From Parietichytrium sp. I65-24A (lineage: Eukaryota; Sar; Bigyra; Thraustochytrida; Thraustochytriidae), in the NCBI GenBank assembly GCA_012862575.1, contig BLSF01000096.1:43512-107511 (forward strand): a stretch of DNA of 64,000 nucleotides, in the 5' to 3' direction. Both the position numbers and the translations under genes were made by a program. Shown piece by piece: positions 2,176 to 54,328 of this stretch. Under the pieces are notes generated by a model. That model ran no database searches. It saw nothing but the letters and a program-made list of their open reading frames with translations, and was not told the origin of the DNA. Within the stretch, counting starts at the first letter, position 1. Every line of letters starts with the position of its first letter.

Positions 2176-5100
2176 CTAGGGGAAAGGATTCCGCGAAGGG
2201 ATCATCCTGACACCTCGGATGCCCTGAGTTGCAATTCCATGATGGCGGCTGTCTTTAGAAAGGCAAACCAGAAGATGGTCAACGAAATCATCAATGGAAA
2301 TGATGTTGTTTCCGGCAGTATCAAAGTGTGTCAAGAGCAGCTCCATATCAGCAGCCTTGATGGTGATTCCAAAGTTGAGAAGCGCGTCTTGGAACTCACT
2401 TGCAGCGATACCGAGATCAGCCTGGTTTGGCTTTGCATTTGCGACCAAAACTTGCTCTAATGAGCGGATTGGCTGCTCTGGTTTGTCTGGGCGACGAGTA
2501 GAAAGCTGCAGTTCGATGGCTTTCACGCAAGCATCCAGCTCCGACTTGTAGGTCGCGAACTCCTTGCCTAGGCGATCTTGCAACCATCTTTCACGTCGCT
2601 GACGCTCCTTCTCGCGTTCCTCCCGAGGGCGACCCATCTTCTCACGATATTCTGTGCCTGAAATTGGACGGAGGGATTGCTTGGCAGACTGCGCCAAATT
2701 CACATGTGCATCAATGTTTGCTTTCTCTACCTTCTTAAGAAGCTCCTGCCTCTCGGAGACCTCTAAACGTAATTTCAACTCTGCCTCTTCGAGTTGGGAT
2801 CGAACCCTCTTGAGATCGCTCTGCAGTCTCGTCTCTCTCGCATCTGTCACGCCCTTGAGCCTCTCATTCTCTACCCTAAGCGACTCAATCTCCCTAATTT
2901 TGGCCTCATGGGTCTGCTGCAGTTTGACGAATTCTTCATAATCTTCATACCTTGCAAACCTTTTCGGGGGTTTTGGCTCCGATTCACGCGTCAACGCTTC
3001 GGCTTCATCCAGTTTGCGACGCTGCAGTTCAATCTCGGACCTAGTGTTCCTCAACCTCTCTTCATTGCTCTTCACTGTATCCTCTAGGCCGCGTCTTGCA
3101 CGTTCAGATTCCGCGAGTTTGGCTTTCGTGTCCATCACCTCTTCTCGTAACCTGGACGCCAGAAGACTCAAGTCTCTTGCAGAACTTGCGTCTCGGAAAG
3201 CCAGATCAGCAGGGTCCCTTTGAACAGCAGTTTCCCTGGAAGCAATTTCCGGAGGAGGCATGCTCTCGTCTCCATTCTCCGTCTTAAAGAGGTCTTCCTC
3301 CACTGCGCTTTGCTCAGTCTCTACAGTGCTCTTCGAGTCGTCAAATCGTATTGAAAAGTGAAACTTGCCCACCTCGACCATCTTGTTGTTTACTATAGAA
3401 AGCCACCGATCAGCCGTGCGCCCTGGGCTATCCGTGATTGCAGAAAGCGGAAACTTGACAGATCCGACGACCTCTCGACCTTCTCCGATCTTGGTGCGCG
3501 TTGTGTTAAGAACAGTGAACTCAACGTGCGGGGTCAAGCAATGGCTGAGTTGCAAGTGACCAAGCACCTTATCCCACGCGTCCTCGTCGTTGTATGGAAA
3601 AGAAGTTCCGATTTTGACGGTTTCTTTTTCCTCATGAATTGGATATGACTTCAAGATTCGCAATGTTTCGCTTTCGTAAATCATCTCCTCCGGCAGATCC
3701 TTTTCCTCAAGCGGCGCTTCATGCTCCATGAAGAAGGTCATTCCAAGAGCCGTGGCGCGAAATTTCCTCTTTGACACCCCTTGGGGCACAAGATGAGATA
3801 GCTGGCCATGCTTTTTACCCTGATAGCCGAACTGCCGCCGCTTCGAGAGCTTCAGGCGATCCCTCTTTTTCACTTTGAGGGAGAACTCATCGTTTGAGCG
3901 AGGATCGTAGGCCACTAGCCCAAATTTCGTGGGGTCATCGGCTAGGTGATGGACAAAGAGGATCACATACGTGTTCTGAACTTTGCAGACCCGCGTAAGT
4001 ACCAAGTTCCGGTTCGCCATTTTCACAGGTGTATACGGCATACTGAAGACGGCATTGAATGCAGGGTTCAGACCACCATCCCGTGCTACTTGGCTGCAGA
4101 ACTGCTCTTTTCCAGGCAAAACTTTAGCTTGCACAAGAGTGTGTCTCCTCTCGGAGATGTACGCAACAAACTCATTCCACGACATTTCTTCTCGAAAGTT
4201 TCCGTGCGTTTGCTCGAATACGACGCGGAGGATGCTTTTGATGGAGCAAAACGAACGCGTCACACGATTTCCCTGAGCTGCCCGAAGGGCTTCAAGAACC
4301 TGATTTTTGCAGTCCTGCAGATTGCCTTGATCAACGAGAAAGCGAATATTCCGCTCCGACACCTGGTAGAAGAACGGCAGTCCGCTACAAGAGTCGAGCG
4401 TCTTACGAATAAACTCAACTTTTGCAGGAGACTCTTTGATTGTTAGCGCCAAACGATCTCCTCCACTCCTCACGTCCTTGTTCAGTGAGAGCCTCTCAAC
4501 AAGATCCTCTAAGAAGTGGCCATACTTGTCGCTTTCTGGCGCCACCCAGGTCGCACCAATTGGAGGCAAGCTGGCCAAATCTTCGTCAGAGATGGCGATT
4601 CCACAGAGCTCGAGCAATCGGCCATTCTCAGGATTATAGGCCTGGATATCAAGCGACGCCGGCTTTCCGGGGGAGTTGGCGTTTTTGTAGTCAAATTTTG
4701 GCGGGTCGTGAGCGAAAACATCGACCAGATACAGAGCCGGTTGCTCGCCGGTTTTGTGTCTCTGACGCAACATGTACCGCAGTTTGAGTTCAACGGCTGT
4801 AACGTTGTCGGGGCGAAGCATCTGGGCAAGAGTAGAGCGATTCACTCTCTTTGCTTTACAGAAAATCAGTGCATCGTCGACCAGCATCCTCATTTGCTGT
4901 GCAAGAGTAAGCTGAATGACTGGAGCACCAGCAACCGCATTATGCGTCGGCTCCACATTCGTGTTGAAGTCTTCAAGAATTTCTTCCAGCCGTTTGGCCT
5001 CCAGCTTTTCTATCTCCTCGGGAGACAAGCCAGGTGTTGGTGCGCCTTTAGGCTTTTCCTCTGCAAGCTTCAGCTTTGCGTGTGATCTCAAAATCGATTC

Positions 5101-8100
5101 CGAGAATTCACTTGCTTTCACGCCGTCGGAAGAAATGTCGCGGCGAACGCCCAACACTTCTTGCACAAACGCCGGAAGGGCAGCCATGACCTTGTCCAAG
5201 TCAATTTTGGAGGCATCCTCCCCAGTGACCGTGACTTGAGTTGCTCCATTCATGGTGGAGAGAATTGATGCCAAAACCTTGCGCGCCGCGTCTGGGCTGT
5301 CGATTGCAGCCCCTGGAAGATGGTTAGCCCTTTCCAAGAACGTGTTCAGCTGTGCGGACTTTTCGAAAAAGTGAGCAACACGATAAACTCTAGGAGCAGC
5401 GACCTTCGCATCCATCGCAAACATAGTTCTATCCTCGCGGTTTGCGCAAGTTTTAGTGAGCAGGCGAAGCTGAGTTGCAAAGTCCCGCAACTTGAACCAG
5501 TCTTGGCCAATTGACCAATCCTCCGTCACCTTACTTCTGTCTCTGCTTGGGCTAGCAATCGCTCCGAGCAACCTCGTCAACGGAATGTTCTCTTCAGCAA
5601 TGCTTGCCGCATCCGTGTCTGCCTGGATAAAGTCGACGAACTCTGCGTGTTCGATGAACCCATCCCCATTTTTATCTAAATGAGTAACAAGGTGGTCGAG
5701 CTCGTCATCTTTCAGCTGCAAACCGAGAGTCTGGAGCGCTTGCCGGAACTCAGAACGGTCAATCATGCCAGTATTGTCCTGGTCGAACATGCGAAACCAA
5801 CCCTCCAGGTCCATGGAGCGCGATAGCTGCTCCTGTAATACTTGCGCTTCACCGCCGATTGGGACTACTCGCGAAAACACATGCCGAGCACCCTTGGAGT
5901 TCTTGCGCTCAACAATTTCAAGCTTGGCTGTGGCCATTGCCGAGATGCTAGCATCGGTCTCCTCGATCCAGGCTCCAGGCTCTAAGTTGTCGCGTCCTAG
6001 GGTTATGGTCTGAAAAACAGTTTCAAACACGGTGGGAAAAATCAGGTCAATCAACTGCTTTTCGCCGAAAGCTGGATCTGCAGGGTGAACCCAAGCATTC
6101 GGATTAGCCGGCAAAGTCGATGGAATTGGAGGCCCGGCAGGTGCAAGCGATGAAGATGAGCCAGCAGCAGCCGCTGCTCTTTTTGCTGCAGACTCTTTCT
6201 TCATGTTGTCGTATTCATCGTTTTGGAAACCAAAATCATCAATGACGGTGGCCTTTGCGAGATGCTTGAGTCGATCTTTTCGCATCTCCTTGGACATTGC
6301 CTTCATCTTTAAAAACTCCTCATTTCTCCTGCGATCTATTTCCAGCGCCGGGCTTGATGCGGGATGGACCACATTCACGACTTGGCCAAGCACATCGTCA
6401 AATTCATCGATCAGATCGCGTGGAGCTGCTGAGGGCACTCCCTTATCTGGCCCCGAGTTTGATGATATTTTTTGAAGAAATTGCTTGTCATCAAAGCCCA
6501 AAGCTTCTTGTCTTTTGAGAGTTGGGCCGCTGTATGTCGGGAAATATGTCTTCAACACTGCGTCAATATACGCAATGCGATTGGGTACGTAAGCTGCAGA
6601 GTTGTTTGGCTTGACCGAATGGTGCGAATACTTTTGCTCTTTCACAGTGTTTTCTAAAGCATCTGGAGCGAGCGTAAAGGTGTCACACCAGATTTTTAGC
6701 TGTTGTTCCCAAAACATGGGCTGCTCAATTTGCGTTTCGTCGACGCGAACATAAGGAGCATCGACAAATCCAAAGTCTTTTCCAGCAAGTAGATCGTACG
6801 CGATTGGAATGCACGGGAGCTCAGGGTGCGAAAAGTACTGCCATGCCCGAACGATAACCTTGCGCGAAGAGATCTCCACAATAGGGCTGGTGTACACAGC
6901 ATTAATTTTCCGTCGGTGGTAGTCTGTGTGAAACCATGATCGCGACTGGTCCGAGTTAGAAAGCATAAGATCTTGAGCTTCCAATGCACTTATGTTGAGA
7001 ACGCCTATGGCTGTTGCAGGCGGCCTGTACACCAGGTCATCCACTGGGACGGGGGGTTTTGAAGCAAAAAGCGACTCTCTGAGCATGTCCTGCTCAAATA
7101 TTGAGCGAATTTTGTCACTGGCGACGGTCGACTCTGGGTAGCAAAGTGTCTCAAACTCCTTATCCGGAATCTCCGATACGCTGAATCCTAACGAGACCAT
7201 CCTCTGTTTGAACTCCATTCGCGAAAGACGGGAGCTGTCCCTGAAAGTCTGCAGCGCGCGCTGTGTGTTTAGCCCCTTAAGCTTGGCTGCATCAAGTAGC
7301 TTCTCTTTAATTTCTTCGGCCTTGATAGCTTTTGCCTTGCGCTCTGTCACAACGTTCGGGTCGGTTTCAACTTCGCCTGGCGTGGTTCCAAGAGCCGGAG
7401 CTTCACCTGAAGCCGGGGCACCACTATCATTATCATTCGCGGGGTTTTTGGAAACTTTTGAGGCCCACCTGGCTGCCCCAATCAATGGGTTCCAGAGGCG
7501 CTCAAAGTCCACGGGCTCCTTTGCGTCATACCCGTGTAAGGAAAGCGCGTTTTCGATGAAAACTGGCTTGTCGAAAAACACAAAAAATGAAAACGAGTCC
7601 GTCACACCCCTGTCCAGAGTATGGGGAACAAGAAAGTAGTCCCCGACGTTCAGCACCACATCCCGGCTACATGTGGGGTGGAAAGTATAAGATGGCTGGC
7701 TCGCTCGCGGATTGCTTCCAGGAATAAAGTCCCTCGAGCTGGGCTTGGCCGGAAGTAAATGGTCTGTTGCATCGGCTTCGCAGATGGAAAAGGAGTACAA
7801 CGTATCGTTGGCATATTTGCTGTTCTCCATGCGCCGATCATGTACAAAAAGGTGTATGAAAACGCGGGTCTGTGCATCGCGCACTCGAAATCGAAATCGA
7901 GGGTTAAGAAACCAAGTTTCCTTATCAACGCTTCCACCAGCGGTCTGCTCAGACCATTTTGATGTGCCAAAATATCCACCTTTCCAGAGAGAAGTGCGAT
8001 CTTTCGCATTTGGATTGCTCTGCGTTGCGGATATCAAAGAAGAAAAGCACTCCAAAAAGTCATTGAACCCCATGAGAAAATATGCAGGGCTGCTGATTTC

Positions 8101-24884: not shown

Positions 24885-27343
24885 CTAATTTTTGAGGGTA
24901 CAATCTGAAGACACAAGGATGCCGCGTTCTCTTCCCCACTCACGTATCCTGGTGCGAAGGTGCACAAGGTTCGTCCTCCCCGATATCAGTACCTTGGCTT
25001 TCAAATTGTTGGTCAAGATGTCGACCAGATCATCGCAGTGCATGCGCATAAGCCGTATCCCTGCCGCTTGATAGACCACGTATTTGACGTCGTCGTCTAT
25101 CTCATCTGACTGCTCTGATTCTCCCCGCGGAACGAATGGCGTAGCGTGAGCGACCGTAGCTGGGTCGGCTAAAGGATTGGATGCTTTTGCTCGTGTCCAG
25201 AAAAGTGTTTTCGCGATTTGAAGACGGTAGGAGATCGGACAGGTTTGCGATATTGCCATTTCAAGGCTCGCCGCAACGAAGCCCAGGTCGCGATCATCAC
25301 ATTTCGCAACAGTGGAAATACAGAGAGCCACAAGAATTCCAGAATCCGTCGGTTCGTGCGCCTTAGGGTCGACGTTTGCACCAAGAGGGTGGGAAACTTG
25401 CCAGTCACCACCAAGTAAGCCACACAAATACTCCATTGACTCCGTCGCTCCAACACCGTTCGCGTTCGACAAGAGCATGGCTTTGCTCCTGAAGTCAAGC
25501 ACGATGAGGTTCCATTCGCCGCCGACATGGTCATGCACGGGGACAAGTACCCGACACTGTTCTCTTCCCAGAGCCATCAGCTCTTCACGAGCTGCTGGGC
25601 TTCGAAGGAGGCGGTCCCATAAGCTAATGTCCAGGACGCAAGAAGAATCTTTCCTCTGATTGATGGTGACAGCATGGGCGGCCAACACGGAGCTGTCTAG
25701 TACATTCCCTGGCATCAATGTCTCGAAAGCGTCACCAGTCAGGCCAGCTGTAGTGGTAAACACCATCTCTCCTTCGCTAGCGCGAACACTTGCCACAGTG
25801 CGTCTGAGCTCCTCTAAATCTTCTTCAGCCTCTCTGCTGCGCCTCTCCTCGGCCAAAGCACTTATTTCCTCCAACCTGGAGTTTGCCTCCGCAGATTCCT
25901 TACTGAAGGCTTCTGTGCTGAGAAATCCTATCTGGTCCCCTCCATCTACAGCAAGCTGCTTGACGCGTTTCCCACTAGCAGCGGCCGTTTTCTCCTTGCA
26001 TGTAGGCATACGCTCAAGCGCAACTTTACTTTGACCTTTGCGGCCCCGTTTATTTTTACGGGTACCTTTCTTGGAAGGATCACCGTACCGGGGCTGCTGC
26101 CGATGCGCAGTCTCTGCATCCGTGCCCATTTCAATCGTTTCGTTCCTTTGCCAAGATATCGCCATCTTCCTCGTGCATTGCTCAATCTGTGCATCAGAGA
26201 TCGAACCATCTTCACTCAGAACGTTGCGGCCCCGTTTCTTGATGGGCTGTTCAGAGTGAAGACCGTCGGGCGACTGCGATCCCTGTACAGTCTCCGCATC
26301 CCTGCCCGCCGCAAGCTGTCTGCGGTTTCTCAGCGATGTCGGCGAGCTCATCATCTCATTGCACAATTTCCTGGCATCCTCAACCAGCTGTTTGAACTTC
26401 AACACGGCCTCGAAGCCCTTATTGGTATTGGCTTCTAAGGAGGCGAGATAGTGAATCTTCTGACCAAAATACCAGAGCGGACCCATCGCTTGCAATATAT
26501 CTGCAGCGTTCTTCTCCATCGTGGCATGGCCTAGAAATACGCCTGCTGACTGCGATTCTGTGGTACCACCAGGGGGTCTCGGTGGGCTGTCATTCTGCGC
26601 CTCTGCGGTAGCGTCAGGACGGTCTGACCTGTTTCCGGCGTCAGGGTCGAGATCGTCATCACTGTTGTGGAACGAAGCAGGGTCGTCTCCGTCGGACTCC
26701 GACCCGGAAAAAGCTTGCTCTGATGTTTGTGGAGGGGAGGAGGAACGCTGGTCAAACTCCAATTGAAGCTTCCTGGTGGTCCAACCCGGATCCATGTCAC
26801 GATCAGTTCGGAAGAGATATTGTGCATAGTACGGCGCCACAGTGTCTTGAAATCGCCGCACGGCAAGTCCTAGACGAATGCGAGAGGTAATAAATTTTTT
26901 CTTCAGCACGCGATGGTAGCTCTCTAAGAAGTCGTTGGTGCGAGCTTGTTTCCCAGTTACAAGCCGGGCTCCATCATCTTGCCTATAAACGAATGACCAC
27001 CGGCTCACCCTCTCAGCTGCAAAGTACTGTGTCTCAAAATACTCCAACAATCTCTCCTGTCCCTGAAGCAGAGCAAGAAACTTAGCCTTCTTCTCCGTGT
27101 ACCCCACTGCCGTTCCTTCATACATCAAATCTTGAAAATGGGAGATGATTAGACTGATCTGCTGTTGCCTCGATTTTTTCGCCTGCTTCTCCACGTAACA
27201 GCTCTGCACCTTGACCTTTATTGCTTTCAGAGTGTGAAAACTGCAGTAAAGCCAACGCACAGGTGTTCCCCAAACCTTTTCAGCTCCATTGTGGGGCGCA
27301 CCATTCATGTCGCTCAAGACTAGTTCCACTCTCCAGTTTGGAT
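24885..27343 (-). CDS. MULE transposase, C-terminal part, with degenerate Ulp1/C48 protease-like domain
   Basis: The frame enters from the N at 27344 (reading PNWRVELVLSDMNGAP) and ends at 24885, about 815 residues. The first 220 residues hold the second half of the MULE catalytic core: the Asp of LSDMNG, a Cys/His pair and the Glu of FLESYH. An acidic, low-complexity linker follows with basic clusters such as KKGTRKNKRGRKGQ that resemble nuclear localisation signals. The last 230 residues look like a Ulp1 fold (RVLVPVHDHVGGEWNLIVLD, then PTDSGILVALCIS). The positions expected for His, Asp, Gln and Cys appear to read Glu, Asn, His and Ser, so it is probably not an active protease. There is no native start in this part because of the assembly break. 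Confidence 0.68.
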
Positions 27344-27344
27344 N
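27344..27344. other. single N interrupting the transposase
   Basis: The reading frame on the two sides differs by one, so this N stands for a gap or an indel rather than a single unknown base. No duplicated flank is visible here. Confidence 0.8.
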
Positions 27345-29346
27345 CAGAGTAACCCATCAGCTCGGGCTCGCGAACTGGTGTGTTGGCCTCGTCAAATAAT
27401 ACCTTGAAATCCGAAGTGACCTGGCATGTCATGCTCGAGCGTCCAAGTTCTTGCGCGGCTCTATATCGCCGCATGTTTTCATCCATGTCAAACCAAAGGT
27501 GCCCATTCCTTGTAGATTCGATTTTGAGTCCACTCTCTTTCGAGGCATCTCCCGCAGACAAAGTGCGCTTGAGTACATTTCGAAGGGCAACCAAGCTGTT
27601 CAGGTGTGTTCTGATTCGCCTATGGTCATTCAGGTTGCTCTTAATGATGGTCTGCTCTGAATTTCTGCTGTAGGTGTTGCAACAGAACTCCTGAGTTTGT
27701 CGCACCGGAATTGTCAAAACTTTGACAAGACACTCTCTAGTTGCGAGAAAGGTGGCGGGATCGGCCACATCCGAAAGACACCTGTAAATCAGGATACATG
27801 CAGATCTATAATTCTTCTGCCGTGCGCCCCGAGATCTTTTTGGTGCAGTTTTCAGATTGTCTTCCAAGCTGGCCAAAAGGTTCGCAAGCAGATCAAATTT
27901 TGGCTCATCTCGATGGGTATCCAAGAAACACTGTGCCTTGGCCAGCTCCGAGCTTTCGTCAGCGATATCTTTACGGAAAATCGAAAACCTTTGACGCTGA
28001 ACCTTCATGAAAATCACCAAACCATCTACACGGCCTTTCTTATAGGCCAAGTCCATCTCGTCGACCAGTTTAATGAGCCCAAGGCGACGACAACGGAGTT
28101 CTCGCTTCTGAAGGGAGCCAACGAGAAATTTAATGTGCCTCTTGACTTTGACTGTTTTGTCAATTTGAAGTAACTTCGCAGCTAGGTCCATAGCTTTATC
28201 GCAGTATGCCTTTGTCGCTGCCAAGGAGTCACTGCCGTCGGATCCCATCCCCTGGGTGTGTAACACGTACCCACCTTGAGTGTCTGGCTTGGGAGCGGAA
28301 GACTTCAGAAAACGGTCAAAGCTGCACATAGTCCAGAAGTAAACGAACGGATCCTCGCCGGGAAAGTCCAAAATGGTGTGATTGCCGTCCTTTGTTATAA
28401 CAGGCATGTATTCCTCGCGAAGGAAGTCTCGCTCTGTCTCTGCAGTACTCGCCTCCGTCTCTGTGTTCATTGATGGCTCACGTGCTGACCAATCTGCTGG
28501 CGATGAGTCAACACCCCCCAGCAACTGATTGTATGGGCTCGGAAGCTCGAACGTCCAGACCTCAAACTCGTCATCACTGCTCATCTCCTCAGTTGATGCA
28601 ACTTCGTGCTCTTCACGAACCAGACGCGCCGAAGTACAACCTCTCCCGCCTACCCCCGATGCAAAACACTCCTCGACGGCTGAAGTACCTCCTGCCAGAG
28701 GCTGTACAACTACGGAAGAACAAACACTTGTGCCCAGACTCGCAGTTACACAACTTTCTTCGTCCAACAACGGGCCTGGCCCAACCTGCGGCACAGCCCG
28801 CTCGCACACGTCAGCAATTGCGACGCCGGCGGCTTCGTCGCCAGCAAGCCTCTTTCCCTCGTGCCCAAATTGAGTCGCGACCTCGGTCGTTGCGCCTTGG
28901 CCCAGCGGCACGCCGTTCGTCTGCCCCTGCCCCATGTTGATACCATATACAATATCGGGATAATACTTCGCAATGCTGTTGTCCTCGCTACCCAACAATA
29001 GAGGCGACCCCATGCTGCGCATAGGTACAGCGCAGCCCTCCAGGTTGACCTGCGGAGAGCTTACATTATTCTGTGGACTCCCCCACCTAGTCTTCATCGA
29101 CTGCAACTGGACGATGGTCGATTCCAGGGTGGCGTCTTTCCCCAAGGTAAGTTTACGACCTTCAAAAAACGCAACGCCATTAAGGTGTAATTGACGCGCA
29201 CATATGATCACATCGCGATGGATTGGCCTCCCAAGCCTCGTCTCAAGGTCAGCTACCACAGCGCTGAGCCTCTCCTCAAGTTCAGCCTCCACAGTGCTGA
29301 TGTCGTCACAATGCTCCTGCCTTGTCCGCACCATTCTGCCTGCCAT
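27345..29346 (-). CDS. MULE transposase, N-terminal part
   Basis: ATG at 29346 (MAGRMVRTRQEHCDD) opens about 667 codons up to the N. The first 330 residues are variable and Ser/Gly/Glu-rich, with an acidic stretch (SSDDEFEVWTF). The rest is helical and charged (VKVKRHIKFLVGSLQKREL) and ends in VTSDFKVLFDEANTPVREPE, which should be just before or within the first strand of the RNase H-like core. The first catalytic Asp probably lies close to the N. It is not a host gene by any match I recognise; the assignment follows from continuity with the downstream part. Confidence 0.6.
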
Positions 29347-42840: not shown

Positions 42841-43200
42841 GAATAGAAAAACATCTGCGGCTCGGAGGAATTCAATTCGGCGTCGTGCATATTCGTGCAT
42901 TGTGTTTACGACTGTAAGAAAGACCAAGCCGATCGATCGCTGAGCAGGGAGGGATAAGATAACTCTTTGACTTGTACAGATTGGACAGCGGTGTCTCTAG
43001 CCAACCTAAACTAACACAGAACAAAGCAGTGTCCACATCGCAAGCAGACCCCAAACGATCGCGGAGAGGGATTGGCAGGTGGCTCAGTGACTCTTCATCG
43101 GACAACGCAAACGAAACGCGCAAGGCATAGCTAGCGCAGGGATCGAAGGGTTGGCTGACTGTGTGTTTTGGATTCCAAAGTCAGAGCTCCGGACGGAAAG

Positions 43201-44265
43201 ATGACCAAGTATACCAGCAAAGCGGTGTGGCTCAAAGACGCGCTGCCGATCGGCATGCCTGGACCTGAGCACTTTGAGATCATGGAGAGTACCGTCGATT
43301 CTGAAAGCGACGTTCCCAGCGGACAGATTCTGGTACAAATCAAGTTCATGAGTGTGGACCCATATTTGCGTATGCGCATCAAGGCCGGCGAAGGCCTCCA
43401 ACCCATGGCGGGCTTCGTATCAGGAGTGGTCCTGGAGAGCAATGGGTGTGAAATGTGGAGCAAGGGGGACCTCTTCGGAGCAAATCTGCCTTTCGCGACA
43501 TTCCAGGTCATGGACCCTGCAAGCTCACTTATGTGGAAGCTCAGTGGAATCGTGGACGAGGACAAGTTGAGTTACGGAGTGGGCGTCCTGGGCATGACTG
43601 GAGCAACCGCGTATAGTGGCGTGGTTGGCACTCTTCGCCCAAACAAGGAGAAGAAGGGCGAAGTAATATTTATCTCCTCTGCGTCCGGCGCTGTCGGCTC
43701 TATTGCTGGGCAGATCTCCAAGAACGTGTACGACCTCAAGGTCTTGGGGTCTTGCGGTGGCCCTGACAAGTGCGAGCTCATCAAGAAGAGCTTTGGGTAC
43801 AACGAGGCAATTGACTACAAGACGATTGACACGAGCGGCGCTGATGGAGGCGTCGAGAACCTGGAGAAATTGATCCGCGAGTTCTCCCCCGAAGGCATTG
43901 ATATGTACTTCGAAAACGTCGGAGGGTACTTCTTCGAGGCAGCCATGAAGACTCTTCGCCCTGGCGGCAGGATCGCGGTTTGCGGAGCCATCACGGGTTA
44001 CAACGATGAAAAGGCAAAGATAAACAAAATCGATATTACCCAGATGGTCTATACCCAGCAGCGCATCGAAGGCTTTCTTTCGACAGAATGGCTCGTTGGT
44101 GCAAAGGGCAACTTTCTCAAGGATATGGCTGAGTGGGTCAAGGATGGCAAAATCGCCAACGTTCAGGAGACCTTTTACGATGGTGTCGAAAACTGGCCCG
44201 TCGCCTTCCAATCGCTGTTCAAAGACACACACAGGAACAACGGCAAGGTCGTTGTTAGAGTATAA
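43201..44265 (+). CDS. zinc-independent MDR-superfamily NADPH reductase, copy 1
   Basis: ATG 43201 (MTKYTSKAVWLKDALP) is chosen because the second copy begins at the equivalent codon; an ATG 33 bp upstream is not conserved there. The protein has 354 residues. It belongs to the medium-chain dehydrogenase/reductase group of leukotriene B4 12-hydroxydehydrogenase/alkenal reductases. Markers are the N-terminal domain, MTGATAYSGV, the cofactor loop ISSASGAVGSIAGQISK, the nicotinamide-region YFENVGGYFFEAAMKTL and PGGRIAVCGAI. These enzymes reduce alpha,beta-unsaturated carbonyls with NADPH and need no zinc. The catalytic-Zn Cys/His ligands are absent. It probably detoxifies reactive aldehydes in the cytosol. 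Both flanks are duplicated at the second copy. Confidence 0.92.
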   Translation: MTKYTSKAVWLKDALPIGMPGPEHFEIMESTVDSESDVPSGQILVQIKFMSVDPYLRMRIKAGEGLQPMAGFVSGVVLESNGCEMWSKGDLFGANLPFATFQVMDPASSLMWKLSGIVDEDKLSYGVGVLGMTGATAYSGVVGTLRPNKEKKGEVIFISSASGAVGSIAGQISKNVYDLKVLGSCGGPDKCELIKKSFGYNEAIDYKTIDTSGADGGVENLEKLIREFSPEGIDMYFENVGGYFFEAAMKTLRPGGRIAVCGAITGYNDEKAKINKIDITQMVYTQQRIEGFLSTEWLVGAKGNFLKDMAEWVKDGKIANVQETFYDGVENWPVAFQSLFKDTHRNNGKVVVRV

Positions 44266-46448: not shown

Positions 46449-47525
46449 ATGACCAAGCATACCAGCAAAGCGGTGTGGCTCAAAGACGTGCTGCCGAGCG
46501 GCATGCCTGGACCTGAGCACTTTGAGATCGTGGAGAGTACCATCGATTCTGAAAGCGATGTTCCCAGCGGACAGATTTTGGTGGAGATCAAGTTCATGAG
46601 CGTGGACCCGTACCTACGCGGGCGCATCAAGTTGAAGACTCAGGACGGCGAAGGCCGCCAGCCCATGGTGGGTTTCGTATCTGGAGTGATCCTTGAAAGC
46701 AATGGGTGCGAAAAGTGGAGCAAGGGGGATCTCTTCGGAGCAAATCTGCCTTTCGCGACATTCCAGGTCGTGGACCCTGTACGCTCACTTATGTGGAAGC
46801 TCAGTGGAATCGTCGATGAGGACAAGCTGAGCTACGGAGTGGGCGTCCTGGGCATGCCGGGGGCAACCGCGTATGGTGGCGTGGTTGGCACTCTTCGCCC
46901 AAACAAGGAGAAGAAGGGCGAAGTCATGTTCATCTCCGCTGCGTCCGGCGCTGTCGGCTCTATCGCTGGGCAGATCTCCAAGAACGTGTACGACCTCAAG
47001 GTCTTGGGGTCTTGCGGTGGCCCTGACAAGTGCGAGCTCATCAAGAAGAGCTTTGGGTACGACGAGGCAATTGACTACAAGACGATTGACACGAGCGGCG
47101 CTGATGGAGGCGTCGAGAACCTGGAGAAGTTGATCCGCGAGTTCTCCCCCGAAGGCATTGATATGTACTTCGAAAACGTCGGAGGGTACTTCTTCGAGGC
47201 AGCCATGAAGACTCTTCGCCCTGGCGGCCGCATTGGAATTTGCGGAGCAATCTCGGGTTACAACGAAGAAAAGGCAAAGCCAAACAAGATCGATATTACC
47301 CAGATGATTTACACCCAGCAGCGCATCGAAGGCTTCCTTTCGACAGAATGGCTTGTAGGCTCGAAGGGCAACTTTCTCAAGGACATGGCCGGGTGGGTCA
47401 AGGATGGCAAAATCGCCAACGTTGAGGAGACCTTTTACGACGGTGTCGAAAACTGGCCTGTCGCCTTCCAATCGCTATTCAAAGACACACACAGGAACAA
47501 CGGCAAGGTCGTTGTTAGAATATAA
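46449..47525 (+). CDS. zinc-independent MDR-superfamily NADPH reductase, copy 2
   Basis: ATG 46449 (MTKHTSKAVWLKDVLP) opens 358 codons. It is nearly identical to the copy at 43201. The difference in length is four residues in KLKTQDGEGRQP, where copy 1 has KAGEGLQP. Other changes are conservative, such as VMFISAASGAV for VIFISSASGAV and IGICGAISGYNEEK for IAVCGAITGYNDEK. All cofactor-binding motifs are intact, so both copies should be active. The upstream 250 bp and the 3' flank are also similar, so regulation may be shared. Confidence 0.92.
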   Translation: MTKHTSKAVWLKDVLPSGMPGPEHFEIVESTIDSESDVPSGQILVEIKFMSVDPYLRGRIKLKTQDGEGRQPMVGFVSGVILESNGCEKWSKGDLFGANLPFATFQVVDPVRSLMWKLSGIVDEDKLSYGVGVLGMPGATAYGGVVGTLRPNKEKKGEVMFISAASGAVGSIAGQISKNVYDLKVLGSCGGPDKCELIKKSFGYDEAIDYKTIDTSGADGGVENLEKLIREFSPEGIDMYFENVGGYFFEAAMKTLRPGGRIGICGAISGYNEEKAKPNKIDITQMIYTQQRIEGFLSTEWLVGSKGNFLKDMAGWVKDGKIANVEETFYDGVENWPVAFQSLFKDTHRNNGKVVVRI

Positions 47526-49508: not shown

Positions 49509-50048
49509 TCACATCACCAAACTCAGCATGATGAGAAGAATTGGCAGAACAGCCTGCATCAGCATTCCACTGGAGTTAGCAGAAGAGTTGCGAGTCACCA
49601 TAACCACGTATTCCGTGTTACCGGCCCTGGCTGTTCCTGCCACGACATTTCCAGTCGCAGTGTTGGAGGACTGCGAGTAAGATCCGAAGCTAGAATACGA
49701 GAAGAGATAGCCAATGCTGCTGCCATAGCTGGACAGAAACAGCTGAGAGGCGCTGGTGAAATCGCTCGGTAGATTTGTTGCGAGATTTGCGTTGACGCAA
49801 GAGTTTGCTGCCACCTCCACAGAGAAAGTCCCGGGGGAGGTTGTTGGAGTGATGGTCACTGTGAAATTTCCGCCCACTGAATTCCCCGAACTTGAAGCCT
49901 CTTGCAGCTTCTGGCAATACTCGTCATCGGTCGTTGTCGAACGAGCTGCGCCACCCTCCAACACATGGCTCACTTGTTCTCGCAAGTTGCCCTTCACGAC
50001 CTGCGCAACCACCAGCACCAGACCCACTAGCTGCTTGACGCCCACCAT
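49509..50048 (-). CDS. small secreted, probably GPI-anchored protein (family member 1)
   Basis: The first ATG at 50048 (MVGVKQLVGLVLVVAQVVKG) starts a signal peptide; the frame is open 14 codons upstream without ATG. The 179-residue protein has several N-glycosylation sequons (for example NFT and NSS), a Ser/Thr-rich body and a hydrophobic C-terminal tail (SGMLMQAVLPILLIMLSLVM) without a following charged cytoplasmic end. This is the layout of GPI-anchored surface proteins. The block ANSCVNANLATNLPSDF resembles NTCLSIALPSNSDF in member 2, suggesting distant homology. No known domain is recognised. Confidence 0.7.
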   Translation of the reverse strand: MVGVKQLVGLVLVVAQVVKGNLREQVSHVLEGGAARSTTTDDEYCQKLQEASSSGNSVGGNFTVTITPTTSPGTFSVEVAANSCVNANLATNLPSDFTSASQLFLSSYGSSIGYLFSYSSFGSYSQSSNTATGNVVAGTARAGNTEYVVMVTRNSSANSSGMLMQAVLPILLIMLSLVM

Positions 50049-50436
50049 TTTCACTTTCTTCGCGGTCAACGACGGGATCAACGCCTGCAAGTGCCTCGTG
50101 TCCTCGCGTAATGAGCCTTGAGCGATGCGCTTCAGTTTGGTGACTGACAGTCACATCGCGGTAAATGAATGTGAATGAAGAGAAGAGGAGCCTTTTGGAC
50201 ATCACCTCTATCCCACGAAGTACCGTCACCGTAACCGGTACTACCTTCTCTTTCACGCTGTCTTGCCAGTCTTGTCGCTACACTTTAGTATCTTTGTTGA
50301 CTCAACTCAGGAAACCCATGGTGGATCCTACAGGCCGTTGGTTTTGGCTTTCTTTCTTACTTTCTTTCTGTCCTTCTTTCATCTGTTCAACTGTTCAATC
50401 ATTTGATATCGACTGTCTAAGTTGTTCATCAATTGA

Positions 50437-50465
50437 AATCAATCAATCAATCAATCAATCAATCA
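50437..50465. repeat. AATC microsatellite
   Basis: Seven AATC units. Confidence 0.9.
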
Positions 50466-51969
50466 GTCAATTGAAATAAAATGACATGACAATGGAAGTG
50501 AAGCGGCAAGAGAAAACAGTCCGCTGGTGCACAAGCTCCTAGCTCACAGGCATGTTAGCAAGAAACGTAACGAAATGCTCATGTTCAGCTTGAACATGAT
50601 CTGAAATGAAACCAAAGGAAAAAAGCATAAAGAAATCCTCTCTCTCGCTTTCCTCTGTTTCTGTGCGAGCGCAAGTGTATATGCATCAATGCATCGAATT
50701 CTCTCATATACATCGTGATTCTGTTCTGAATTCTGAATTATTCTGTTTCTGAATTCACAGTGAACTGGTAGTACTATCCCACAGATTCCCACAGGATGCG
50801 GCAGGGACGCTACGCTGACTGTGAATTCGATGAACAGTGGGATTCTGAGGGGAGCAGTTGGGACAGAAGGAACTTGAACTTTGAGACTTTTTAACATGCA
50901 AGTTGAAGGAAGATTAGGAAGATCCGCGAACTCCGAACTCCGTTGAACGGGAATTGGCGGCGTTGTGATCTCGATTCTTGTTCAATGAGTTTTCTCAATC
51001 GAGTTTCAATTGTAAGTTTCAACTGATTCATTTTTTTTTCGCAGTCACACTCAGAAAGAAGAACAAACACAGTTTCAAAGCAAGTTAGTTGTGGTGCAGT
51101 GGACGGACGTTGAATTTCACTCGCGGCCATCGGCATGGGGATCTTGAGGCAGGCGGGAAAGCATTGAGAATTATACAGAATCTCTCTCTGCCTTGCGGTG
51201 GGCCAGTCGAGTCAGGGATCCCTCGTCTCTGCTTCTCTCTCTTCTTCAAGATCCGGCTGTGCGTGCCGTGCATGCTGCGCGTTCTCTTCATCTGCCGTGC
51301 TGTTGACAAACGTAACGTGCTGCCACTCGATGCGTGAGATGCAACGTATGCACACTGTTGATCTGCTGTGACTGTGCTCTGAATTCTGCACCCTTCTCGA
51401 CTGAACTACTTCCGTCAGCGTCGCGAGAGCTTGGCAACCTCGCACCGCTGAAAAGACTCGTACCCTTCTCGATACCTCGTTCGTGCCCTGAGTCTTTTCT
51501 TCTTCCGGGCGCTTCATTCACGGCAATTGCAATGCGCCTAAATCTAGAGCACACGTGAGGTGGTCATGCAGCGCGGCGGGAGTTCTCGAGACGTCAAGAG
51601 GCTGCTCTTGAGAATGGGTTCGGCGGCTTTGCATTCACAAGTGTCGACAGGTCACTCGGCGGTGAGTCTGTGACTCGCGGCGTCATGGTCATTGCCATGG
51701 TCACGGTTTTACGGCCACGATCAAGTTGATCCGGAGGCTGCTGCTGAAAACCGTCACTTGCAGTGCAGTCATGTGCAGTCGATACTGTCGACAGCACTGA
51801 ATCGCAAGTAGATTCGGATAAAGAAATTGTAGTGTTGCTGTACACCAGCTGTAATGATACGCGACGAGATGGAACATGGCAAGAATGAGAATGGCAAGGC
51901 AAACTTGAAACTGGCAAGCGAGCAAACTTTTCGCGCACTGGATCGCTTAGCAACTTCGTGTGCAGAAGA

Positions 51970-52014
51970 GAACGAGAAGGGGAACGAGAAGGGGAACGAG
52001 AAGGGGAACGAGAA
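51970..52014. repeat. GGGGAACGAGAA tandem repeat
   Basis: Nearly four copies of a 12-mer, 50 bp upstream of the chosen start of GPI-type gene 2. In that gene's frame it would read NEKG repeats, so it may be translated if an upstream ATG (51854) is used. Confidence 0.85.
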
Positions 52015-52063
52015 GCGGGTGAAGCGCAGTTTGAATTGTCCAGGCGCTCCTGCGGCAGGGAAG

Positions 52064-52687
52064 ATGGGTCGAGTGTTCGGAAAGTTTGGAGCGCTTCTCG
52101 CAGTCGTGAGCGTGATCGCGCACCAAGTGGAGGCGAGGGAGATAAGTGAGTTCCGCGCCCTCGACGAGATTGAAGACTCCTTGTGCGAAACTTTGTACAA
52201 AAAAGTCAAGGACACGGAAAAAAATTACACATACGAGGCCGTGGAGGTGTTCCTTTTCGAGACAACATACACTTTGGATGGCCAGATCGTCAAGGATGCG
52301 ACCACTTCGGAGGTTGCCAATAACACGTGTTTGTCCATCGCGCTTCCCTCGAATTCTGATTTCGAGAACAGCACATACGTGGCCAGCAACTATCTTGGGA
52401 TGTGGGGCGTCGCACTCGAGTCTCGATACCCGAATGGCACTGTGCTCACTTCTGCCATTACCGTGTCTTCTGCCAGCTCAGGTGTCAGCTTGGACTATTC
52501 CATCCCGACTTTTCGGAACGGAACAACCGTTCCTTATCGAGCAAAAATCGCTGTCTCTACCCCCACTTCTCAGCCGACAACGACCACCATGGCTCCAACG
52601 TCGCAGCCGACACCCAGTTCCAGCGCTTCAATTTCCGGTTCAATTGTGGCTCTCATTGTCGCCCTCCGCGTGTGGGCACTGCGATAA
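52064..52687 (+). CDS. small secreted, probably GPI-anchored protein (family member 2)
   Basis: The start is set at ATG 52064 (MGRVFGKFGALLAVVSVIAH) because it places a signal peptide at the N-terminus; an in-frame ATG at 51854 would add a charged repeat-rich extension ahead of it. The protein has 207 residues, five or more N-glycosylation sequons, a Thr/Pro/Ser-rich stalk (STPTSQPTTTTMAP) and a short hydrophobic C-terminus. The blocks NTCLSIALPSNSDFENST and SNYLGMWGVALES match NTCISMRVPQDPDFVNTT and SNFLGMWGFATET in member 3, which makes the two clear paralogues. No known domain is recognised. A cell-surface location is inferred. Confidence 0.75.
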   Translation: MGRVFGKFGALLAVVSVIAHQVEAREISEFRALDEIEDSLCETLYKKVKDTEKNYTYEAVEVFLFETTYTLDGQIVKDATTSEVANNTCLSIALPSNSDFENSTYVASNYLGMWGVALESRYPNGTVLTSAITVSSASSGVSLDYSIPTFRNGTTVPYRAKIAVSTPTSQPTTTTMAPTSQPTPSSSASISGSIVALIVALRVWALR

Positions 52688-53283
52688 ACAATAAGAGAGA
52701 CTCACATCACAAGTGTCAAATATGGCTGACGATAATACCTTTGGCCAGAGAAGAAGCAATCAATAGTTTTCCAACCTTTCATCTTCTGATTCCTATTTCA
52801 CACAGTCCTCTGTCTTGTATAATACATTCACATTTAAGGAACCGAAGATTGATTTCAACAAAAGTATGAACTCGACAGGCACCGGGCTTTGCCTGGTCGT
52901 CACATCTCAGAAATTTGCACAACGTTGCCTCCCGTGCTTGCCCTCCAGCGTCAACAAAAGTGCCCCAATGTGGTCCAAATTTACTAAATTGCACAGTTTG
53001 GAACAGTCGTTGTTGGTAGAGGGTCCTAAGCGTACGTTAAGATCGAATTCTTATTTTTCAGTTTTCGACGATTTGATTCTTTTTTGCTTCTTTCCTTTTC
53101 AAAAAACATAATCCTTTGTGTTGTAACGTTAACGCAGTTGCTTCTCATACTGTAAAGAGCTGTGCTGCACTCCAGAAATTCTTGCTTTGTTGGATGGAAG
53201 GAACGAAGCAAGGGAAGAAAGAAAGAAAGAAAGAAGTAAAGCGAATTAGCAACGATCACTAATCGAGACCTGCCTGGACGGAC

Positions 53284-53366
53284 TGGACGGACCATGGACA
53301 TCCATGGACCTTGAAAACCGGGACTCAAAACTGTGAGTACCGGTATGTGAATACTCACAAGACATT
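53284..53366. repeat. 83-bp direct duplicate, left copy (ends at the N)
   Basis: Identical to 53368-53450; the two copies abut the N exactly. Confidence 0.92.
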
Positions 53367-53367
53367 N
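53367..53367. other. single N, probable scaffold join
   Basis: Sits exactly between two identical 83-bp copies. Confidence 0.85.
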
Positions 53368-53450
53368 TGGACGGACCATGGACATCCATGGACCTTGAAA
53401 ACCGGGACTCAAAACTGTGAGTACCGGTATGTGAATACTCACAAGACATT
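53368..53450. repeat. 83-bp direct duplicate, right copy (starts at the N)
   Basis: Identical to 53284-53366. Confidence 0.92.
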
Positions 53451-53731
53451 CAGCAAACACAAAATGTCAGAAATTGGTTACTGGAAAACTAGTGAACTTC
53501 GAAGAGGAAATTGTTGTCCCACGTTGGGACCAGACATGTTGGACAGCTGTATGGATCTTTAGTGCGTACCGGTAATTAGACAGTGGACGTCAACGGCAGT
53601 TGAAAGTTGAAAAAGATTCGAAGGACATCATCTTCTTGTCAGACCCCGAACCACAGGCTACGCAAAGTTTCCGTATCCACTATCCATCTCCATCTCCGCA
53701 CCCGCGAAGCAATACAAACTGAGCTCGAAGG

Positions 53732-54328
53732 ATGGCGGCGAGTTTCGCGACATTGACGCTGGCGCTGGCTCTGGCCCTGAACTTGGTTGGGGCAATCAAC
53801 TTGGACAGTCAGCAGGCTGTACTTGGTGGGCGAATGGGCTTGGCAGAGAGCTCGAGTGAAACGACTCCATGCGAAAGGTTGCTCGCGAAAACTGCGAACA
53901 GCCAGGCGAATGTAAGCAATGTTGCTTTCGTTTCTGCCTATGAATTTAACGCCACTTTCAACTGGCTTGGTCAAAAATTTACGGCCTACCAAACCTTCAC
54001 CTCTGGCCCTTCCATTGCGACAAACAACACATGCATTTCCATGCGAGTTCCCCAGGATCCCGACTTTGTGAACACCACTTTGCATATCAGCAACTTCCTC
54101 GGCATGTGGGGATTTGCTACAGAGACGACGGGAGATACCAAAGGCGAGACAATTGGCCACTCTCCAGAAACGGACATAACAACCTACGTGACTTCAAACA
54201 ACGGGGGCCTCAATTATACTTTGCACATGCACATTGCAAAAGTTCCAGATGAGAGCCGGGGGACATCCTCCTCTGTGCCACTATTTTCTATGTTCACCTC
54301 GCTCTTGGTTCTCGCATCAATGTCCTAG
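53732..54328 (+). CDS. small secreted, probably GPI-anchored protein (family member 3)
   Basis: ATG 53732 (MAASFATLTLALALALNLVG) starts a clear signal peptide. The 198-residue protein has multiple N-glycosylation sequons (NVS, NAT, NNT, NTT, NYT) and a C-terminal hydrophobic tail (VPLFSMFTSLLVLASMS) after a Ser-rich stretch, typical of GPI-attachment signals. It shares NTC-x-S...DF-x-N-S/T and SN-F/Y-LGMWG-x-A with member 2 at the same spacing. One Cys in that block and one near the mature N-terminus (TTPCERLL) are shared in position with LCETLY in member 2, suggesting a conserved disulfide. Function unknown. Confidence 0.75.
   Translation: MAASFATLTLALALALNLVGAINLDSQQAVLGGRMGLAESSSETTPCERLLAKTANSQANVSNVAFVSAYEFNATFNWLGQKFTAYQTFTSGPSIATNNTCISMRVPQDPDFVNTTLHISNFLGMWGFATETTGDTKGETIGHSPETDITTYVTSNNGGLNYTLHMHIAKVPDESRGTSSSVPLFSMFTSLLVLASMS

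Follow-up and report, generated by a model that had tools for sequence, protein, structure and literature searches.

Two neighbouring genes, W2 and W3, lie within a 64,000-nucleotide stretch of the thraustochytrid Parietichytrium sp. I65-24A (contig BLSF01000096.1, positions 43,512 to 107,511; hereafter the window), which forms the end of its 107,511-base contig. Profile comparison of the encoded proteins shows them to be true homologues that share common ancestry with another seven distinct intact genes in this genome. The best overall explanation of this family is a dispersed, fast-diverging set of small single-domain surface glycoproteins, a reading to which we assign a probability of about 0.6. 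The first-pass annotation had described a cluster of three such genes in the window, W1 to W3. For two of them (W2 and W3, its members 2 and 3) the family is real, coherent and broader than first reported, an ordinary example of a common phenomenon that is newly seen here.

Whole-genome searches (42.5 Mb assembly, 172 contigs) with W3 recovered W2, C14 and C61, and those with W2 returned W3, C14 and C61 plus C9 at E 0.015; relatives are named after the contigs so numbered (C14a–e, C61, C9, C152a and C152b). C9 in turn recovered C152a at E 3e-7. C152b, noticed beside C152a in the list of open reading frames (ORFs), returned C14 at E 0.007 and C152a at E 0.017 in its own search, and no further clear member emerged from the genome with C61, C152a or the head of C152a as queries. 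Kinship was assessed with profiles that excluded C14b and C14d, scores being compared with 2000 block-shuffled copies in which signal region, body and tail were shuffled apart. A profile of the seven non-window members scored W2 at 95.9 bits and W3 at 68.2 bits, with 0 of 2000 shuffles as high for each. The same holds in both directions between two cysteine forms of the family: a profile of the four-cysteine members (C9, C152a, C152b) recovered W2 (32.9 bits), W3 (29.3), C61 (27.4) and C14e (22.1), and a profile of six two-cysteine members recovered C9 (15.5), C152a (7.4) and C152b (19.6), again with 0 of 2000 shuffles as high in every case. The blocks NTC-[LI]-S...DF-x-N-[ST]-T and SN-[YF]-LGMWG-x-A and the second matched Cys, which the first-pass annotation had noticed in W2 and W3, are present with identical core spacing.

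The claim that the genes are locally expanded does not stand. W2 is only 26% identical to its neighbour W3, whereas it shares 37–39% identity with the C14 copies and 30% with C61, so the window pair is no recent local expansion. Copies C14a, C14c and C14e are 73–78% identical to each other; the tandem cluster sits on contig C14, and the W2/W3 pair is, judged by these identities, old and divergent. Two trees gave 0 of 6 and 0 of 7 strongly supported inner branches, the branches being long, and we claim no branching order.

All 11 family ORFs, on five contigs (W2, W3, C14a–e, C61, C9, C152a and C152b), carry the gap-free signature C-x5-P-x13-N-x2-G-x-[C/W]. The pattern occurs twice in the window (in W2 and in W3), nowhere outside the family in 322,748 scanned bases (window included, overlapping loci counted repeatedly) and in none of 20 base-shuffled windows. 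Four matched cysteines are present in C9, C152a and C152b, with Cys1 and Cys2 23, 24 and 22 residues apart, respectively, and Cys3 and Cys4 exactly 25 apart in all three. The eight two-cysteine ORFs lack Cys2 and have Trp at +25, in place of Cys4. This joint absence suggests disulfide pairs C1–C3 and, in the four-cysteine form, C2–C4; the trees, which do not resolve, give no direction of change between the forms. An N-glycosylation sequon lies three residues before Cys3 (NNTC) in the eight two-cysteine ORFs and C9, and a second at +13 from Cys3 in the same eight. Sequon counts exceed the shuffled expectation in W2 (5 vs 1.9) and W3 (5 vs 3.2), compared with 3 vs 2.9 in W1, so that the description of all three genes as rich in sequons is not confirmed.

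Eleven ORFs reduce to nine distinct intact genes. The stretches of C14a and C14b that flank a single N (position 5423 of locus L009; compared region 4325–6528) show 98.55% identity across 1104 aligned bases; the two may be allelic or falsely duplicated copies. C14d is truncated: the 5' leader seen in the neighbouring copies continues into the interior of the coding sequence, with loss of the signal peptide and first Cys. Nine is a lower bound, since several weak own-genome matches were left unopened (C22 at 292009, C35 at 461671, C50, C111, C110, C28, as well as C55, C30, C57, C71, C11 and others, in which the matched part of the query was mostly Pro/Thr repeat). Other matches were opened and dropped by eye as unrelated (C13, two in C22, C23, C62, C35 at 431080 and C137). 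W2 and W3 lie ~10–12 kb and the C14 cluster ~7–12 kb from contig ends. We do not claim a subtelomeric placement of the family: C61 is not near an end, no telomere-like repeat was visible by eye in the last bases, and TTAGGG doublets are absent from 69 scanned loci, a scan made outside the window.

Conserved and changing segments in the C14 cluster

Comparison of C14a, C14c and C14e shows a mosaic in which, judging from these coding sequences, signal peptide, core and tail are conserved beside two rapidly changing segments. The ratio of nonsynonymous to synonymous differences per site (pN/pS) is lowest in hinge and tail (0.16), core (0.21) and signal peptide (0.24), intermediate in the N-terminal part (0.61) and highest in the two segments that flank the core, with 1.60 ahead of it and 1.16 behind it; none of 5000 column shuffles gave a pN as low as that of the core. 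Since pS in the core (0.168) is not reduced relative to the variable segments (0.167 and 0.239), the data disfavour gene conversion as an explanation for the conserved core. Pooling gives a pN/pS of 1.30 for the variable part (bootstrap interval 0.86–2.14) and of 0.20 (0.10–0.38) for the conserved part, the N-terminal part being left out; the segment borders were drawn after the first profile, which makes this contrast descriptive.

With odds slightly short of even, the fast segments are merely weakly constrained, forming loops or linkers in a structural coat protein, and neither diversifying selection nor a role in recognition is involved. The bootstrap interval of the variable segments fits such relaxation, as it includes 1 (89% of bootstraps lie above it), and so does the loss of 5' coding sequence from C14d, as expected where copies are dispensable. 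Against this, all three pairs of copies give a variable-segment pN/pS of 1.27–1.39 compared with 0.20 in conserved parts of the same genes, and a Fisher test of variable versus conserved segments on halved pair counts yields p = 3.5e-5, a rough value given borders set after the fact.

Kinship of W1

The inclusion of W1 in the family, as proposed in the first-pass annotation, is not borne out, and we reject it as a demonstrated member. W1 lacks the signature; its scores with profiles lacking W2 and W3 are at chance level (-1.5 bits with the seven-member non-window profile, 1162 of 2000 shuffles as high; -2.2 bits with the four-cysteine profile, 1649 of 2000), and, apart from W1, a whole-genome search returned a single weak match (E 0.68) and no other relative. 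That W1 is a remote member, bringing those in the window to three, is doubtful. The idea draws on its neighbourhood, on a layout of signal, two Cys and tail shared with W2 and W3, and on profiles that themselves contain W2 and W3: the nine-member profile gives 7.9 bits (5 of 2000 shuffles as high) and ranks W1 third among window frames at E 0.16, and the profile of six two-cysteine members gives 5.8 bits (21 of 2000). By these comparisons, W1 appears to resemble W2 and W3 in layout only.

Probable surface display, fold and possible role

A hydrophobic, signal-like N-terminus is present in 11 of 12 ORFs examined, the truncated C14d being the exception, and a hydrophobic C-terminal tail in all 12; computed hydrophobicity confirms both stretches for each of W1 to W3. 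W2, the C14 copies, C61, C9 and C152a have a Pro/Thr-rich hinge ahead of the tail, which W3 and C152b lack. This layout, an N-terminal hydrophobic stretch and a C-terminal end without cytosolic segment, is that of glycosylphosphatidylinositol (GPI)-anchored surface proteins. The genome also encodes Gpi16, a GPI transamidase subunit, matched over the curated cut-off in two stretches of one frame (E 1.2e-47 and 2.0e-29); 14 control genomes gave no match to the same profile. Display at the surface by way of a GPI anchor is thus quite likely, on predicted features. The layout is not confined to the family: a secreted-looking protein on contig C35 (L051, 1114–1809) shares hinge and hydrophobic tail without the signature. 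Another secreted-looking ORF, of 757 amino acids on C62 (L032, 193–2466), resembles von Willebrand A at its start and has a Pro/Thr hinge and several VVAWG-like repeats, all as judged by eye.

In the model we favour, the signal peptide would send the protein into the endoplasmic reticulum, where C1–C3, and C2–C4 in the four-cysteine form, would be bonded as disulfides, the sequons glycosylated and the hydrophobic tail swapped for a GPI anchor. The product would be a glycosylated, probably beta-rich head on the cell surface, carried in most members by a short stalk rich in Pro and Thr. If exposed, the variable segments could offer a changing face for coat identity or for cell-cell or cell-substrate recognition. 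Judged by the layout and by the alternation of conserved and variable segments, a function in the coat or in recognition is the likeliest one, as a tentative proposal.

Several points weigh against the reading as anchored surface glycoproteins. Chief among them is arginine within the last 14 residues of six of the nine distinct intact genes (W2, C14a, C14c, C14e, C61 and C152a), as arginine near the end of the tail is unusual for a GPI signal. The first-pass annotation had stated that the tails are uncharged; W2 ends in ...IVALIVALRVWALR, with two Arg among these residues. Signal and tail were assessed by computed hydrophobicity only. The fold models described below are weak and disagree on any known fold, the segments of the selection test were delimited post hoc on three sequences, with a variable-part interval that includes 1, and the kinship tests failed for W1. 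Proteins that are secreted, or of type I with the tail kept as a short transmembrane helix and no GPI anchor, would act in the medium or the endomembrane system, an alternative that we regard as unlikely. Less probable still is a novel recognition system in which a cysteine-framed domain on a lipid-anchored stalk, in a two-disulfide form and a one-disulfide form with Trp exactly at the Cys position, carries loops selected to diversify between tandem paralogues for self/non-self, mating-type or strain recognition or for evasion of predators or viruses.

Folding with the window proteins as sole input (a three-row alignment including W1) gave a mean predicted local distance difference test score (pLDDT) of 53.6 and a predicted template modelling score (pTM) of 0.48 for W2, and of 43.5 and 0.41 for W3. 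In both low-confidence models, a helix at Cys1 is followed by several strands and, at the tail, by another helix, in the same order; a shared beta-rich fold is compatible with both and not established. Agreement in element order is what this prediction contributes, the confidence being too low to name a fold or to count as a test. Neither unrelated folds nor matches placing W2 and W3 in different known families were seen, the fold part being too weak to count.

Structure searches gave no trusted match. A known domain is rejected: Pfam searches with eight and then nine proteins returned chance-level matches, none at the curated cut-off (best E 0.076, PT repeat), and among PDB sequences there were 0 matches with W3 and one weak match (E 2.7) with the nine-member profile. 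Pattern searches of viral contigs and prokaryote genomes with a seven-member alignment (A2) produced 20 and 13 matches, respectively, none confirmed. A literature search returned general work and nothing on this family, which may be known elsewhere under a locus name. For the lysosome-associated membrane protein (LAMP) domain, no Pfam Lamp match is among those listed for the family, the W2 model is of low confidence, the domain is not among the best 50 matches of the W3 model, and the family lacks a cytosolic segment after the tail.

The nearest parallel is offered by taxon-restricted GPI-anchored surface families of protists as a general kind (for trypanosomes, PMC3605285). Such families have in common with the present genes a signal peptide, sequons, a hydrophobic tail, tandem copies, fast divergence and no recognised domain. 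In contrast to these, the W2/W3 family matches no named family by sequence in the libraries covered, is small (nine distinct intact genes) and has a GPI anchor that is predicted from sequence. Overall, the first-pass observation holds in part and its interpretation finds partial support. For W2 and W3, a divergent family of surface proteins that have no recognised domain and probably carry a GPI anchor is supported, with at least nine distinct intact genes on five contigs; W1 is not shown to belong, and the idea of a fresh local expansion falls. Surface proteins govern adhesion, mating and encounters with enemies in single-celled eukaryotes, and many are unnamed orphans. With its clear signature, its two cysteine forms and its conserved and variable segments already mapped, this family can be named, sought in other protists and tested; it merits a family name and a structure, without being a surprise.

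Gene models and surroundings

The three ORFs of the first-pass annotation lie where it placed them, and codon bias supports their coding character: the assigned frame exceeds the five other frames for W1, W2 and W3 each, with the smallest margin for W3 (0.077 vs 0.048), the reference being ten long window ORFs that were hand-chosen and not annotated. The W2 frame is open already from an upstream ATG at 51854.

Table 1. Coordinates of the window genes, their signatures and the relatives found elsewhere in the genome
Feature	Sequence	Coordinates	Strand	Remarks
W1 (member 1)	window	49509..50048	-	179 amino acids, stop codon included in coordinates; Cys45, Cys84; 3 sequons; signal-like N-terminus, hydrophobic tail
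W2 (member 2)	window	52064..52687	+	207 amino acids from ATG at 52064; Cys41, Cys89; 5 sequons; signal-like N-terminus, Pro/Thr hinge, hydrophobic tail with two Arg
Signature C-x5-P-x13-N-x2-G-x-W of W2	window	52328..52405	+	pattern scan
W3 (member 3)	window	53732..54328	+	198 amino acids; Cys47, Cys101; 5 sequons; signal-like N-terminus, hydrophobic tail, no Pro/Thr hinge
Signature C-x5-P-x13-N-x2-G-x-W of W3	window	54032..54109	+	pattern scan
C14a	L009	4651-5268	-	locus coordinates
C14b	L009	5757-6374	-	locus coordinates
C14c	L009	6963-7577	-	locus coordinates
C14d	L009	8143-8679	-	locus coordinates; truncated copy
C14e	L009	9123-9728	+	locus coordinates
C61	L011	4752-5339	+	locus coordinates
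C9	L021	1474-2106	-	locus coordinates
C152a	L030	1348-2097	-	locus coordinates
C152b	L030	2748-3326	+	locus coordinates

Between W2 and W3, a single N at position 53367 is flanked by an 83-base exact repeat (53284–53450), and the join is probably an unmerged scaffold overlap. The window is rich in long single-frame ORFs (HSP90-, kinesin- and calpain-like, named by eye), the pattern of an intron-poor eukaryote, and an Rfam search found no match in it. On the minus strand, a pair of long ORFs that overlap each other (24885–29346, with a single N at 27344) looks mobile-element-like by eye, with a protease-like part, and two alike quinone-oxidoreductase-like ORFs, also named by eye, lie ~2 kb apart on the same strand (43168–44265 and 46449–47525).

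Elsewhere in the genome, no chlorophyll-binding protein was found at E up to 0.001. Two triosephosphate isomerases are present, in open frames of 256 and 450 amino acids, neither long enough for a GAPDH fusion. No PfaA-type synthase match exceeds the cut-off; a 5583-amino-acid open frame on contig C66 (8562–22499) gives four ketosynthase-region hits with the PfaA profile, all short of the cut-off, and encodes a large modular synthase.

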